From contig JAUXAI010000073.1 of the NCBI GenBank assembly GCA_030619985.1, forward strand, positions 1 to 5,035: a DNA stretch of 5,035 nt, read 5' to 3'. The notes under the pieces are model-generated. The model did no database searches. It had not been told where the DNA came from and saw nothing but the letters and a program-made list of their open reading frames with translations. Below, piece after piece: positions 582-5,035 of the stretch. The translations under genes were made by a program, and so were the position numbers. Numbering within the stretch: position 1 is the first letter of the stretch; every line of letters starts with the position of its first letter. The stretch comes from a bacterium. GTDB lineage: Bacteria > UBP18 > UBA7526.

Positions 582-2048
582 ATGGTTCAATTAAACCAAT
601 TATTGGGCGCTCTAAAGGAAAAAGAAGTCTGTGGCTCCCAGGATATAGAGATTAAAAAGATTGCCTATGATTCGAAGGAGGTAAAGAGGAATTCACTCTT
701 TGTTGCTATTCCCGGCTTCCGGACAGATGGTCACCGCTTCATAAATGAAGCCCTTCTCAAGGGAGCACGGGCAGTAGTTACAGAGAAAAAAATCCCTTTA
801 GGAGAAGGGGTAACCGGGATTCGAGTGCCAGATACCAGAAAGGCCCTGGCCCTTTTGGCAGATAGATTCTATCATCACCCCTCAGGGAAAATTAGACTCA
901 TCGGGATTACGGGCACCAATGGGAAGACCACCACCTCCCATCTTATTGAGGCCATTTTGACCGCAGATAAGAGAGGCTGCGGCCTCCTGGGTACCATTGC
1001 CCACAAGATAGGCAGTAAAACCATCCCCGCCCAGATCACTACCCCGGAGTCACTCGATCTTCAGTCCCTGCTCAGTCAACTAGTGGAGAAAAAGATTAAA
1101 TACGCAGTGATGGAGGTCACAAGTCACTCCCTCCAGCTTTCCCGCATTGAAAATGTGCACTTCTCCATAGCGGTCTTCACCAATCTATCCATCGATCATC
1201 TCGACTTCCACCAGACAATAGAGAATTACTTAGAGGCGAAGACCAGGCTTTTTACCAGGCTGGCGAAGAGAGCCTTTGCCGTCATAAACATTGATGATCC
1301 CAAGAGTAATTACCTAAGGAAAAGAATCCCCTGTTCCATCTTAACCTATGGGATAGAGAAAAAGGCAGATGTCAGGGCAAGGAGGATAGACTTAAGTCTG
1401 GAAGGGAGTAGTTTTAAGGTGAAGACCCCGGGAGGGGAGCTGGATATCGACCTCTTCCTTCCTGGAGAGCATAACATCTACAATGCCTTAGCTGCCATTG
1501 GGGTCTCCTTCCTCTTGAAAATCCCTCCCGCTGCCATTAAGAAAGGCCTGGAGAGAATAAGGAATATACCGGGCAGGTTTGAGAGGATTGACGAGGGCCA
1601 GGACTTTTGGGTGATCGTTGACTATGCCCATACGGATGATGCTTTAGAGAAGGTGCTCTCCACCTGTCGGGAGTTGACAAAGGGAAGGGTAATCTTAGTC
1701 TTTGGCTGTGGAGGGGATCGGGATAGATCGAAGAGGCCCTTAATGGGTGAGACGGCAGCGCGACATAGCAACTATACCATAATCACCAATGATAATCCCA
1801 GGAGTGAGGAGTCTTTAAGTATTATCTCAAGCATTGAGGTGGGGATGAAGCGGGGGGGTGGTAGATATACTATCATCCTCGATCGGAAGGAGGCCATTAG
1901 GAAGGCAATAGAAGAGGCCGGTTCAGGAGACATAGTCTTAATCGCAGGAAAGGGGCATGAGACCGCCCAAACCATTGGAACCCAGGTTCTTCCCTTCGAC
2001 GATAGAGAAGTGGCTAGGAAGATCCTAAAAGAGCAAGAAATAAGTTAA
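582..2048 (+). CDS. murE: UDP-MurNAc-L-Ala-D-Glu:meso-diaminopimelate ligase MurE
   Basis: This cytoplasmic ATP-dependent ligase adds the third residue of the stem peptide to UDP-MurNAc-L-Ala-D-Glu. At 488 residues it is full length (E. coli has 495). The N-terminal UDP-binding domain covers about 1-105. The central ATPase domain has the P-loop GTNGKTTT (111-118), substrate-binding TTPE (153-156), and EAKTRLF with Lys220 as the expected carbamylated lysine. HNIYNALAA (297-305) and GRFE (331-334) lead into the C-terminal domain, which has DYAHTDDALE (347-356), DNPR (404-407) and GKGHE (456-460). DNPR with GKGHE is the signature for mDAP; lysine-adding MurE differs at this site. ATG 582 follows the PBP stop (578-580) by one base and has only a weak GAG (574-576) in front, so translation is probably coupled to the upstream gene. 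Odd: the last codons (ATA AGT TAA) lie inside a tandem repeat that continues into the gap. Confidence 0.98.
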   Translation: MVQLNQLLGALKEKEVCGSQDIEIKKIAYDSKEVKRNSLFVAIPGFRTDGHRFINEALLKGARAVVTEKKIPLGEGVTGIRVPDTRKALALLADRFYHHPSGKIRLIGITGTNGKTTTSHLIEAILTADKRGCGLLGTIAHKIGSKTIPAQITTPESLDLQSLLSQLVEKKIKYAVMEVTSHSLQLSRIENVHFSIAVFTNLSIDHLDFHQTIENYLEAKTRLFTRLAKRAFAVINIDDPKSNYLRKRIPCSILTYGIEKKADVRARRIDLSLEGSSFKVKTPGGELDIDLFLPGEHNIYNALAAIGVSFLLKIPPAAIKKGLERIRNIPGRFERIDEGQDFWVIVDYAHTDDALEKVLSTCRELTKGRVILVFGCGGDRDRSKRPLMGETAARHSNYTIITNDNPRSEESLSIISSIEVGMKRGGGRYTIILDRKEAIRKAIEEAGSGDIVLIAGKGHETAQTIGTQVLPFDDREVARKILKEQEIS

Positions 2049-2062
2049 TAAGCTGACAAGTT

Positions 2063-2092
2063 TCAGCCAGAGGCTGATCCGCCTTCGGCGGA
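2063..2092 (+). other. Two back-to-back 15-nt perfect hairpins with triloops
   Basis: Positions 2063-2077 form the stem TCAGCC/GGCTGA with loop AGA. Positions 2078-2092 form the stem TCCGCC/GGCGGA with loop TTC. Each has six perfect base pairs and a three-base loop, and they touch without a spacer. A third, weaker triloop hairpin follows at 2100-2118 (TTGATAAG/CTTGTTAA, loop TTT, two G-U pairs in RNA). No T-run follows directly, so this does not look like an intrinsic terminator. A role in mRNA stability or as a repeat core is possible but is inference. Confidence 0.75.
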
Positions 2093-2099
2093 GATAAGT

Positions 2100-2128
2100 T
2101 TGATAAGTTTCTTGTTAACTTGTATACT
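2100..2128 (+). promoter_or_regulatory. Candidate sigma70-type promoter for murF
   Basis: TTGATA (2100-2105) matches the -35 consensus TTGACA in five of six positions. After a 17-base spacer, TATACT (2123-2128) matches the -10 consensus TATAAT in five of six. Transcription would begin near 2135 and give a leader of about 28 bases before the murF ATG. The match is close to ideal, but both boxes are built from the AT-rich repeat words of this gap, so it may have arisen by chance. It is the only place in the window where I see a promoter of this quality between genes. Confidence 0.4.
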
Positions 2129-2162
2129 TATACCCTTGTTAACTTGTATCAAGAAGAGAGAG

Positions 2163-3548
2163 ATGGAGAAGCTAAAGGTTAGGGAATTAATAGAGGCTAC
2201 TGGAGGAAGACTGATCCAGGGAGATCTAAAGAGAGAGATCTCTGGGATTTCTACTGATAGCCGCAAGATAAAGAAGGATGAGCTATTCATCGCCCTAAAG
2301 GGACCGAGATATGATGGCCATGACTTCGTTCAAAAAGCGATCAAAAAAGACGCCTCTGGAATTTTGGTTTCTAAATTAGCAGGACGCCGCCGTCCGTCAC
2401 CCGGTACCATTTTAGTAAAGGATACTCTCAAGGCCCTGGGCCAGATCGCTAAATACTATCGGGAGAAGTTCGATCTACCAGTAGTTGCTGTGACCGGGTC
2501 AACGGGTAAGACGACCACCAAGGATATGATCGCCTCCATCCTCTCTTTAGAGCGCTCTGTCTTAAAGACCCAAGGGAACTTCAATAATGAGGTCGGGGTT
2601 CCCCTCACCCTATTTCGCCTTTCTCGGAAGCATGAGGTTGCCGTCTTAGAGCTGGGAATGAGCGCCTTAGGAGAGATCGGAAGACTCACCAGAATCTCCT
2701 CTCCCAGGATTGGGGTGATGACCAATGTGGGAGAGGTTCATTTACAGTATCTGGGCAATGTAGAGAGGGTGGCCTTAGCAAAGGCCGAGTTGGTGTATAC
2801 CCTGGGGAAGGACGATGTAGCCATCCTCAATATAGATGACCCCTATGTACGGGATATGAGGAAGAAAATAAGGGCAAGAATAGTCACCTATGGCATAAGG
2901 AGAAGGACCCAGGTCAGGGCCCAGAGAATTGAGAACCTAAAAGAGAAGGGAATGAGGTTTACCTTAAGGATAGAGAAGGAGGACTTCCCCCTTCACCTAA
3001 GATGTCTCGGTTATCACAATATATATAATGCCCTGGCGGCCGCCTCCGCTGCCCACGCCTTAAGCATGAAGAGAGAGATGATCCGAGAGGGGCTATCCCG
3101 GTTTCAACCCCTGGCAGGAAGGATGAGGATAATGAGGATGGGGGGTCTCACCATTCTTGACGATACCTACAACGCCTCTCCCAAGTCTTTTATTGCCGCC
3201 ATCGAGACCCTGAGAGACCTCTCTCCAAAGGGGAGGAAGATACTAGTGGCTGGAGACATGTTAGAACTAGGAGAAAGGGCTCTCCTAGCCCATAAAGAAA
3301 CCGGAATATATGTTGCTCATTCAGGAATAGATACCCTCATCACCTGTGGAAATCTGGCAGGATACATCGCCCAGGGAGCGATAGGGGCGGGAATGAAGGC
3401 AAAAAAGATAATCTCCTGCCGGAATAAAAAGGAGACTGGAGAGAGACTCTCCTCCCTCGCTAAAGAGGGGGACGCCATTCTCATTAAGGGCTCCCACGCC
3501 ACAGGAATGGAAAGAATCATAAAAAAGTTACGAGAGGTTTACGGTTAA
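2163..3548 (+). CDS. murF: UDP-MurNAc-tripeptide:D-Ala-D-Ala ligase MurF
   Basis: This cytoplasmic ligase joins D-Ala-D-Ala to UDP-MurNAc-tripeptide, the last cytosolic step of stem-peptide assembly. From ATG 2163 it is 461 residues, normal for the family. Motifs in order: TDSR (31-34) and GPRYDGHDF (47-55) in the UDP-substrate domain; P-loop GSTGKTTTK (112-120); NFNNEVGVP (139-147); ELGMSALGEI (163-172); NVGEVHL (188-194); HNIYNALAA (285-293); DDTYNASP (333-340); GDMLELG (364-370); IKGSHATGMER (441-451). The last motif is usually KGSR or KASR; here His replaces Arg. An in-frame TTG at 2100 would add 21 residues encoded by the repeat array. I reject it because MurF homologues begin near this ATG, which also has the purine-rich stretch AAGAAGAGAGAG immediately upstream. 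The final codons (GTT TAC GGT TAA) are themselves repeat words of the next gap. Confidence 0.97.
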   Translation: MEKLKVRELIEATGGRLIQGDLKREISGISTDSRKIKKDELFIALKGPRYDGHDFVQKAIKKDASGILVSKLAGRRRPSPGTILVKDTLKALGQIAKYYREKFDLPVVAVTGSTGKTTTKDMIASILSLERSVLKTQGNFNNEVGVPLTLFRLSRKHEVAVLELGMSALGEIGRLTRISSPRIGVMTNVGEVHLQYLGNVERVALAKAELVYTLGKDDVAILNIDDPYVRDMRKKIRARIVTYGIRRRTQVRAQRIENLKEKGMRFTLRIEKEDFPLHLRCLGYHNIYNALAAASAAHALSMKREMIREGLSRFQPLAGRMRIMRMGGLTILDDTYNASPKSFIAAIETLRDLSPKGRKILVAGDMLELGERALLAHKETGIYVAHSGIDTLITCGNLAGYIAQGAIGAGMKAKKIISCRNKKETGERLSSLAKEGDAILIKGSHATGMERIIKKLREVYG

Positions 3549-3609
3549 CGGTTTACGGTGTACGGTAAAAAAACGGTAAACAGCCCGAAGGGCGGGTAAA
3601 CAGTAAACG
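3537..3609 (+). repeat. Array of 7-base words with inverted copies and a GC hairpin, murF-mraY gap
   Basis: Four contiguous 7-base words of consensus GTTTACG lie at 3537, 3544, 3551 and 3558, with one change each in the second and fourth. An A-rich link (3565-3575) follows. The inverted word GTAAACA then appears at 3576, a GCCC/GGGC hairpin with loop GAA sits at 3583-3593, and two more inverted words follow at 3596 and 3603. The first copy and part of the second encode the last residues and stop of murF. The plan (direct words, hairpin core, inverted words) is like that of the murE-murF gap, but the word and its length differ. I see no other feature in this gap apart from the mraY ribosome binding site. 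Confidence 0.85.
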
Positions 3610-3621
3610 AATACCTGTCTT

Positions 3622-3630
3622 AAAGGAGGT
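3622..3630 (+). promoter_or_regulatory. Strong Shine-Dalgarno site of mraY
   Basis: AAAGGAGGT is a near-perfect complement of the 16S rRNA 3' end. GGAGG ends at 3629, five bases before the ATG at 3635. It fixes the mraY start and is much stronger than the sites before murE and murF, so mraY is probably translated independently of murF. Confidence 0.9.
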
Positions 3631-3634
3631 AAAG

Positions 3635-4735
3635 ATGCTCTATCAATTGCTCATTCGTTTTAAAGACTTACATATCGTCTTCAACGTCTTTCGCTATATC
3701 ACAGTGCGCGCCGGCCTTGCGGCCTTAACCGCTCTTTTAGCGAGCATTATCTTTGGGCCTCTGATCATCAAGAGATTGAAGAGACTAAGGATCTCCCAGA
3801 AAGCAGTAGAAGATGAGGAGTACCCTATCCTCTATCGTCTCCATCGGGAGAAGTCAGGCACCCCCACCATGGGTGGTCTTCTAATCCTGGGAGCTATCCT
3901 CCTCGCTTGTCTCTTATGGGCCGACCTGGGAAATAGGTTCGTCCAGCTCATACTCTTCGCCACTCTCTGGCTGGGAACCTTGGGCTTCATTGACGATCTC
4001 TTAAAGATTAAGAAGAAAAGCAGAGAGGGCCTGAGACCCCTGGTCAAGTTAGGGGGACAGATCGCCTTAGGATTCATAATCGGCCTCTATCTCTTTTGCC
4101 ACCCCTTAATCCCGGAGCATGGGACCTGTCTCACCGTTCCTTTCTTCAAGAACGTCCTCCCCGATCTGGGCTGGCTCTATATCCCCTTCGCCATATTAGT
4201 CATCGTGGCCTCCTCCAATGCAGTCAACCTGACCAATGGGCTGGATGGCCTGGCCATAGGAAGCCTCCTAATCGCGGGAGGAGCCTTTGCTGGACTCGCT
4301 TATGTCACCGGCCATAGTGGGATAGCGAAATACCTGAATATTTTGCATATGTCTGGAGCAGGAGAACTTACCATATTCTGCTCTGCCTTAGTAGGGGCGG
4401 GATTAGGATTTCTGTGGTTCAATGCCTATCCTGCCCAGGTAATTATGGGTGATACCGGCTCCTTGGCCCTAGGAGGAGCTCTGGGTACCATCGCCATTCT
4501 CATCAAGAAAGAGATCATCCTCTTGATCGTGGGAGGGCTTTTCGTCTTAGAGGCCCTCTCGGTCATCATCCAGGTAGCCTCCTATAAAATGCGCAAGAAG
4601 AGGGTCTTTCTCATGACCCCTCTTCATCATCACTTCGAGCTCTTAGGATGGAAGGAACCTAAGATAATAATTCGCTTCTGGATCATTGCCATCATCTTCG
4701 CCCTATTAAGCCTGGGAACCCTGAAGCTCAGGTAG
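3635..4735 (+). CDS. mraY: Phospho-MurNAc-pentapeptide transferase MraY
   Basis: This polytopic inner-membrane enzyme transfers phospho-MurNAc-pentapeptide from UDP to undecaprenyl phosphate, making lipid I. It has 366 residues (E. coli 360). FNVFRYITVRA (16-26) opens the first membrane helix as in E. coli MraY. GTPTMGG (75-81) and FIDDLLK (118-124) follow, with the Asp pair at 120-121. NAVNLTNGLDGLA is at 195-207. FNAYPAQVIMGDTGS (262-276) holds the catalytic Asp273, and TPLHHHFELLGW (328-339) has the family-specific His triplet. The HHH motif separates MraY from WecA/TagO relatives. Hydrophobic stretches are spread over the whole length, as expected for about ten helices. Odd: residue 201 is Asn where the family normally has Asp in NLTDGLDG; this site lies in the pocket known to contact nucleoside antibiotics in Aquifex MraY. 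The other catalytic residues are intact, so the enzyme is probably active. The start is set by the strong ribosome binding site. Confidence 0.98.
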   Translation: MLYQLLIRFKDLHIVFNVFRYITVRAGLAALTALLASIIFGPLIIKRLKRLRISQKAVEDEEYPILYRLHREKSGTPTMGGLLILGAILLACLLWADLGNRFVQLILFATLWLGTLGFIDDLLKIKKKSREGLRPLVKLGGQIALGFIIGLYLFCHPLIPEHGTCLTVPFFKNVLPDLGWLYIPFAILVIVASSNAVNLTNGLDGLAIGSLLIAGGAFAGLAYVTGHSGIAKYLNILHMSGAGELTIFCSALVGAGLGFLWFNAYPAQVIMGDTGSLALGGALGTIAILIKKEIILLIVGGLFVLEALSVIIQVASYKMRKKRVFLMTPLHHHFELLGWKEPKIIIRFWIIAIIFALLSLGTLKLR

Positions 4736-4745
4736 CAAAAGGGGA

Positions 4746-4828
4746 ACAAGGGTGATAAGGGTGACAAGGGTGGCAAGGGTTTTAACCCCCTGTTACCCCT
4801 GTGCCCCCTATTCCCCCTGTAACCCTTG
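4746..4828 (+). repeat. Inverted array of 9-base words, mraY-murD gap
   Basis: The left arm has four contiguous 9-base words of consensus ACAAGGGTG (4746, 4755, 4764, 4773), ending in GGGTTTTAACCC at the centre. The right arm has C-rich inverted words at 4783 (10 bases), 4793, 4802, 4811 and 4820, of consensus TNNCCCCTG. The outermost copies pair perfectly: CAAGGGT (4747-4753) with ACCCTTG (4822-4828). Inner copies have diverged to CCCC/CCCCC and pair only in part. The left arm is G-rich and the right arm C-rich, so the strand bias switches at the centre. No T-run follows, which argues against a terminator. Between the array and murD (4829-4865) I see only the murD ribosome binding site. Confidence 0.85.
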
Positions 4829-4865: not shown

Positions 4866-5035
4866 ATGGAATTAAAAGGGAAGAGAGTTCTGGTAATTGG
4901 GATGGGCAGAGCCGGGGTAGCGGCCGTCAAACTTCTTGAAGCCCGAGGGGCAAGAGTAACCATTACTGATAAAAAGGGAAGGGAAGAACTAAAAGAAGCC
5001 TTTAGAGAACTTGAGGGGAGAAGGATAAGGATTGA
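4866..5035 (+). CDS. murD: UDP-MurNAc-L-Ala:D-glutamate ligase MurD, N-terminal part
   Basis: This cytoplasmic ligase adds D-Glu to UDP-MurNAc-L-Ala, the step before MurE. Only the first 56 codons are present; the gene runs off the window end in frame. The sequence [13 protein letters not shown] (8-20) is the Rossmann-like glycine-rich turn of MurD. ITDKK (33-37) follows, with Asp35 at the place of the uracil-contacting Asp35 of E. coli MurD. ATG 4866 is chosen because AAGG (4857-4860) lies five bases upstream and the homology begins right after it. The in-frame GTG at 4860 overlaps the Shine-Dalgarno and is less likely. Position after mraY is the normal dcw order, where ftsW and murG would be expected next. 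The ATPase and ligase domains are outside the window, so the call rests on the N-terminus and context. Confidence 0.92.

Follow-up and report, generated by a model that had tools for sequence, protein, structure and literature searches.

Contig C5 of a draft bacterial genome (GTDB lineage UBP18, UBA7526; assembly GCA_030619985.1), the whole 5,035 nucleotides of which form the window analysed here, carries the end of a gene for a penicillin-binding protein with a PASTA domain, then murE, murF and mraY, and finally the start of murD. The three successive gaps from murE to murD are made largely of tandem short words and inverted words, with units of 8, 7 and 9 bases, and the words differ from gap to gap. 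How could one layout arise three times from different words? A preliminary description of the window, which was right about the gene order, the coordinates and the unit lengths, had suggested either a process that generates the layout at gene ends, such as strand-switching or slippage, or selection for mRNA structure between the genes. Here, we propose that the gaps probably hold hairpin families resembling repetitive extragenic palindromic (REP) sequences and miniature inverted-repeat transposable elements (MITEs), largely selfish, which are copied as complete elements, then changed through slippage and nesting, and lost or replaced over genus-level time. The dispersal, colinearity, turnover and slippage of these elements are direct observations, and they are presented below in that light; that the elements are selfish and that an enzyme working on DNA hairpins moves them is what we infer from these observations.

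The source genome (G000) is a 1.25-Mb draft of 91 contigs and is 83.65% complete. It was compared with two genomes of its genus (G001 and G002) and three of its family (G003, G004 and G005), and five of the six genomes are less than 90% complete. Each gap of the window was tested against 500 dinucleotide shuffles per test, for which the lowest attainable P value is 0.002. The tandem words were confirmed in all three gaps (P = 0.008 for the 8-mer, 0.002 for the 7-mer, and 0.002 for the 9-mer). The inverted copies were confirmed, as ungapped inverted repeats, in the 8-mer (P = 0.024) and 9-mer (P = 0.002) gaps but were not significant in the 7-mer gap (P = 0.12). GC-rich triloop hairpins had been reported for two gaps, and they are present in the first two (Table 1). 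In addition, the 8-mer element begins within the final codons and stop of murE and fills the murE-murF gap, which is a mosaic of a word array with a separate repeat, a double-hairpin module, inside it. The heptamer array of the next gap codes for the terminal residues of MurF and its stop (VYG*). Stop codons of both murE and murF thus fall within word arrays.

The three gaps are not isolated cases. Searching the same genome with each gap gave 43 match rows for the 8-mer, 37 for the 7-mer, and 23 for the 9-mer gap, at a relaxed E-value and with the window itself counted, and most of the 8-mer rows cover the element partially. The words had been considered too unrelated to be copies of one mobile element. 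Indeed, a single mobile element behind all three gaps is ruled out by the differing words and the separate copy sets, but the words are not private to their gaps, each belonging to a dispersed family. In a de novo census, 225 gaps from the G000 stretches yielded 187 tandem arrays and their shuffled counterparts 2; the corresponding numbers for G002 were 128 and 3. The array periods were mainly 7 and 8, with some of 9 and 10, and more than 20 distinct words were found in the 1.25 Mb of G000.

The scan of intergenic gaps that had been suggested for the source and related genomes was made for gaps of 60-400 bp. In G000, where most stretches were chosen by hits, 112 of 190 gaps (59%) contained a tandem 6-12-mer array, compared with 1 of 190 shuffled gaps. 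A blind sample of G002 gave 119 of 236 (50%), compared with 1 after shuffling, and G004 gave 57%, from a few contigs that were mostly chosen by hits. Four unrelated genomes, when pooled, had an array in only 7 of 91 such gaps (about 8%), and coding segments, in an earlier test, had one in 3 of 182. A chance origin of the arrays is thereby ruled out by the shuffles and the coding controls, and the pattern is not confined to the three gaps. However, a small blind sample of G000 (contigs C42 and C46) had arrays in only 6 of 24 gaps, so the density is uneven along the genome. We also observed that G003 is array-poor (14-18% of the 60-400-bp gaps in stretches L271-L286), and its gaps are shorter than those of its relatives.

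The 9-mer family shows how its copies are related to each other. They are colinear end to end over about 90 bp, and nearly all of them run from A-arm units (CAAGGGTGA) through a TTTAAA loop to B-arm units, the triplets of which are TTA, TAG or TGC, TTC, and TAA, in this order. Across 13 aligned copies, the mismatches between the arms are fixed by column: the pairs 14/82, 28/68, and 41/55 are mismatched in every copy with letters there, and 23/73 in most. The same alignment gave no covariation between the arms (observed values equalled shuffled ones). In the 8-mer, 7-mer, and 9-mer families and a related AGTAACC family, the word comes first and its inverse second, with none of about 80 cases reversed. 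Furthermore, the arms within one element are less similar than arms exchanged between members of a family (permutation P = 0.98-0.9998). The mismatches at shared columns and the low likeness of arms within an element thus indicate that finished elements were copied. Using a sequence model of the 9-mer element, with matches on both strands of one place merged by hand, we counted about 13 full or nearly full places and 2 partial ones in G000, about 10 in G001, about 13 in G005, a few in G004, and none in G002 or G003.

These results bear directly on local generation, according to which slippage would multiply a word and fold-back by strand-switching would make the inverted arm, independently in each gap. 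A fresh fold-back predicts arms that are more alike within copies than between them, and the opposite was found; judged by the similarity of the arms, a fold-back origin was rejected. The common unit order, the shared arm mismatches of same-family copies, and the invariable polarity also speak against it. Slippage, in turn, did occur. In the coding region of cbiB/cobD, G000 and G001 have 21 nt more than G003, an in-frame gain of 3 x GTTTACG, and the protein reads ERKVYGKELN in G003 and VYGLRFTVYGKGLN in G000 and G001, with seven residues added. Unit-level indels are also found between orthologous gaps. Thus, of the generating process proposed in the preliminary description, slippage was supported, and strand-switching gap by gap was not, given the arm similarity and the fixed mismatch columns. 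Local generation can further draw on the fact that tandem 7-mers are common in many phyla. The heptamer triple itself occurs in many named phyla. A reversed control pattern is found as well: the triple was present in 8 of 284 genomes outside the family, and the control in 4. This is not clearly above background, and we claim no shared ancestry of a word vocabulary across phyla. On balance, we consider local generation an unlikely origin of the arrays.

Heptamer arrays with inverted copies, some of them very long, were also seen in other phyla (L147, L162, L168, L164 of Desulfobacterales HSG2, and L167 of Acidobacteria gp4). The array in L167 has a GTTTACG-type hairpin with AAAGCC/GGCTTT at both ends.

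The comparison of the same gaps between relatives showed that the families are often exchanged at orthologous positions. The mraY-murD gap holds the 9-mer element in G000 and G005 and three other kinds of sequence in G001, G002, and G003. The murF-mraY gap holds the 7-mer element with a GCCCGAAGGGC hairpin in G000, and AGTAACC words with differing long inserts in G001 and G002; its right end, where GTAAAC words precede the ribosome-binding site of mraY, is similar in all five genomes in which the gap was read. Among 77 orthologous gaps of G000 and G002, 30 were homologous, 16 partly so, 26 replaced, and 4 present in one genome and absent in the other. Arrays were present in both genomes in 15 of the 26 replaced gaps. 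When only the 57 array-bearing gaps were considered, 22 were homologous and 23 had been replaced with unrelated content. This split into conserved and replaced gaps argues against mere fast drift. Where one 9-mer copy stands in G000 (contig C29; L025 8077-8558), stop and start are just a few bases apart in G002, and no clear duplication was seen at this single near-clean site. In addition, for 19 gaps an array in the genus of G000 has no counterpart in G003, and the median gap length is 173 bp in the former and 56 bp in the latter. A second kind of element, with the ends CCCGCACCTTT...AAAGGTGCGGG (L010:4106-4162), is present in G000 and missing from G002 (L112:7506-7509) with a near-clean junction, and it may have a TTCA target-site duplication.

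Some elements are composite. The double hairpin CAGCCnnnGGCTGATCCGCCnnnGGCGGA was found in about 11 places in the stretches of G000 and G002, within several different word arrays and nearly always right after GTT or GTTT. It looks like an independent mobile module of the REP type that favours a particular target. The triloop hairpin of the murF-mraY gap is represented in relatives by other hairpins or longer inserts, and other GC hairpins between inverted words vary among orthologues as well. In G001, this gap (L094) contains a hairpin of AGTAACC words, within which a second, long one made of CAAATTAC/GTAATTTG-type words is nested; at the same spot G002 has a different insert, CCCCGTTAGA...TCTTACGGGG. 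GNA triloops are favoured in DNA hairpins, and they were enriched in the hairpins of the gaps (15 of 65 triloops, compared with 1.4 of 18 in shuffles). The features of the window and of the related sites are listed in Table 1. No relative of mraY was found in viral contigs.

Table 1. Positions of the genes, gap elements and related sites (window coordinates unless a locus is named).
Feature	Position	Strand	Basis
8-mer family element, murE-murF gap (words AAGTTRAY, inverted CTTGTNAA)	2042..2151	+	Genome matches, shuffle tests, RNA fold
Double GC hairpin module CAGCCAGAGGCTGATCCGCCTTCGGCGGA inside the 8-mer array, immediately after GTTT	2064..2092	+	Own dispersed module
7-mer family element, murF-mraY gap (GGTNNAC words, A-run, inverted GTNNACC words)	3536..3608	+	
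GCCC-GAA-GGGC triloop hairpin between inverted words, murF-mraY gap	3583..3593	+	
9-mer family element, mraY-murD gap (A-arm CAAGGGTGA words, TTTTAA loop, B-arm CCCCTGTTA words)	4739..4828	+	
murE	582..2048	+	
murF	2163..3548	+	
mraY	3635..4735	+	
murD (start only; ATG at 4866)	4866..5035	+	Sequence; aligned to G002 gene start
cbiB/cobD heptamer expansion	L246 = G000:C73:3483-4448 vs L248 = G003:C25:6632-7558		
Other places of the double hairpin module include	L022:462, L027:4917, L029:839, L041:3153, L254:293		

The second suggestion of the preliminary description was selection for mRNA structure, by which unrelated sequences would meet one structural need between genes, such as stability, processing, translational coupling, or insulation. 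It is true that the predicted RNA folding beats the shuffles in all three gaps (z = -4.5 for the 8-mer, -2.3 for the 7-mer, and -2.8 for the 9-mer) and that the arrays are located near stop codons. In addition, the 7-mer family is oriented with transcription at 16:1 in G000 and 9:1 in G002. However, neither the 9-mer family (4:3), which faces both ways relative to genes, nor the 8-mer family (1:6) is significantly biased, the 9-mer hairpin lacks the covariation that was sought above, and many orthologous gaps of G003 have no arrays. Arrays are as common in divergent gaps, and convergent gaps carry them too. Rfam gave no match, and no terminator-like matches were found in the three gaps. Selection for mRNA structure was therefore not demonstrated, and we regard it as an improbable explanation for the layout as a whole. 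The 7-mer family, given its sense bias, may still have a polarity effect or one at the RNA level.

The closest precedent is in Geobacter metallireducens, where several classes (1-3) of tandem 7-9-mer sites, predicted to bind global regulators, are mostly paired on opposite strands and were read by the annotators as IHF/HU sites (PMC2700814). The layout had not been assigned to a named family, but this paired arrangement is similar. Both systems have 3-5 tandem 7-9-mers in multiple copies, with pairing on opposite strands (at variable distance in Geobacter) and several word classes and unit lengths per genome. The Geobacter words (GTTGCTYN, TCTCCGTSY, and MTYCTGA) differ by inspection from the three families of the window, and the lineage is another one. 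Here, moreover, the words number more than 20 and take up over half of the larger gaps, and it can be shown that elements were copied whole and that one stands in place of another among relatives. By analogy, the arrays might be binding sites for proteins, for instance IHF/HU-type nucleoid proteins. The layout has a direct precedent in Geobacter, and the words, in which a fixed core is joined by variable positions, look like spaced binding sites. However, so many words in one 1.25-Mb genome would require many proteins, and the sites turn over completely between sister genomes. We think it very unlikely that protein binding accounts for the arrays.

Short tandem heptamers known as STRR (short tandemly repeated repetitive) or LSSR (long simple sequence repeat) sequences occur in cyanobacteria, in Xanthomonas, and, as TAACTGA, in Beggiatoaceae (PMC4679880, PMC4692102). 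They too are intergenic, low-copy tandem heptamers, sometimes enriched between co-directional genes, with several words in some genomes. Of the three families, only the 7-mer is a heptamer as in STRR sequences, the other two gaps having 8- and 9-mers; 10-mers also occur in these genomes. Furthermore, STRR and LSSR sequences are in essence direct repeats, with 169 direct sets to a single indirect one in Beggiatoaceae, whereas the elements described here are defined units that include inverted arms of constant polarity. A search of a paper library for the literal repeat words gave no match.

REP and REPIN elements are tied to REP-associated tyrosine transposases (RAYTs) (PMC3116915, PMC3733652). 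Like them, the elements described here are short, dispersed, extragenic, palindromic hairpins in inverted pairs and would be non-autonomous. Unlike them, they are built as arrays of tandem words, 75-110 bp long. The foot of the nested double hairpin is GTTT, where REP sequences carry a GTAG or CGTC tag. The elements also resemble MITEs in being small, non-coding, inverted in structure, dispersed, and present or absent at orthologous sites (G000 and G002, and the genus and G003). They differ in that their long inverted parts are tandem words. No target-site duplication was clear at the one near-clean 9-mer site, and a search of the six genomes for DDE_Tnp_1 identified no parental transposase.

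Several results weigh against families of copied, mobile hairpins. Y1_Tnp (PF01797), RVT_1, and DDE_Tnp_1 were not found in the six genomes at an E-value of 0.001, in a search limited to these three families, five of the genomes being less than 90% complete; the control genomes gave matches for Y1_Tnp. Since these incomplete genomes gave no match to Y1_Tnp, a REP-RAYT system was rejected, and since they gave none to RVT_1, so was word making by a reverse transcriptase or telomerase-like enzyme. In addition, the word elements have no clear target-site duplication, and the copies, which diverge by 10-25%, captured no recent burst. When folded as single-stranded DNA, the 7-mer and 9-mer elements exceed their shuffles by a modest margin or not at all, depending on the strand. 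Finally, an element that was purely neutral and unoriented would not be expected to show the strong sense bias of the 7-mer family.

Even so, we consider copied hairpin families the probable explanation, and the history of the gaps might be as follows. Each gap would be a copy of a different short, non-coding, hairpin-forming repeat family of about 75-110 bp, with tandem words of 7-10 bases in one arm, inverted words in the other, and a short loop that often has a second GC hairpin. Finished elements were copied into many gaps. Later, the number of units changed by slippage or by deletion between units, and new hairpin modules nested in older ones, often at loops, as seen at a few sites in each case. 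Over genus-level time, the element of a gap is often lost, with another family in its place. The elements may be non-autonomous, work in hairpin form in DNA that is single-stranded or cruciform, and be moved by an enzyme. They might be tolerated because of their placement, which begins at the stop codon and ends shortly before the ribosome-binding site that follows.

A broader proposal, which we offer tentatively and hold to be rather doubtful at present, is that a class of word-built mobile hairpins fills most gaps of a small genome, its members replacing each other gap by gap, and that their mover is neither a RAYT, a reverse transcriptase, nor an IS4-type transposase. Such a class would also explain the paired repeats of Geobacter and the arrays in other phyla. 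For finding the mobilising gene, the family of six genomes would offer a natural contrast, with G000, G002, and G004 rich in arrays and G003 poor. In some compact bacterial genomes, the DNA between genes may consist for the most part of debris from mobile hairpins instead of regulatory sequence. In that case, predictions of sequence conservation, terminators, and small RNAs in such gaps would need to be reconsidered, and the elements can supply stop codons and C-termini to the genes they adjoin.

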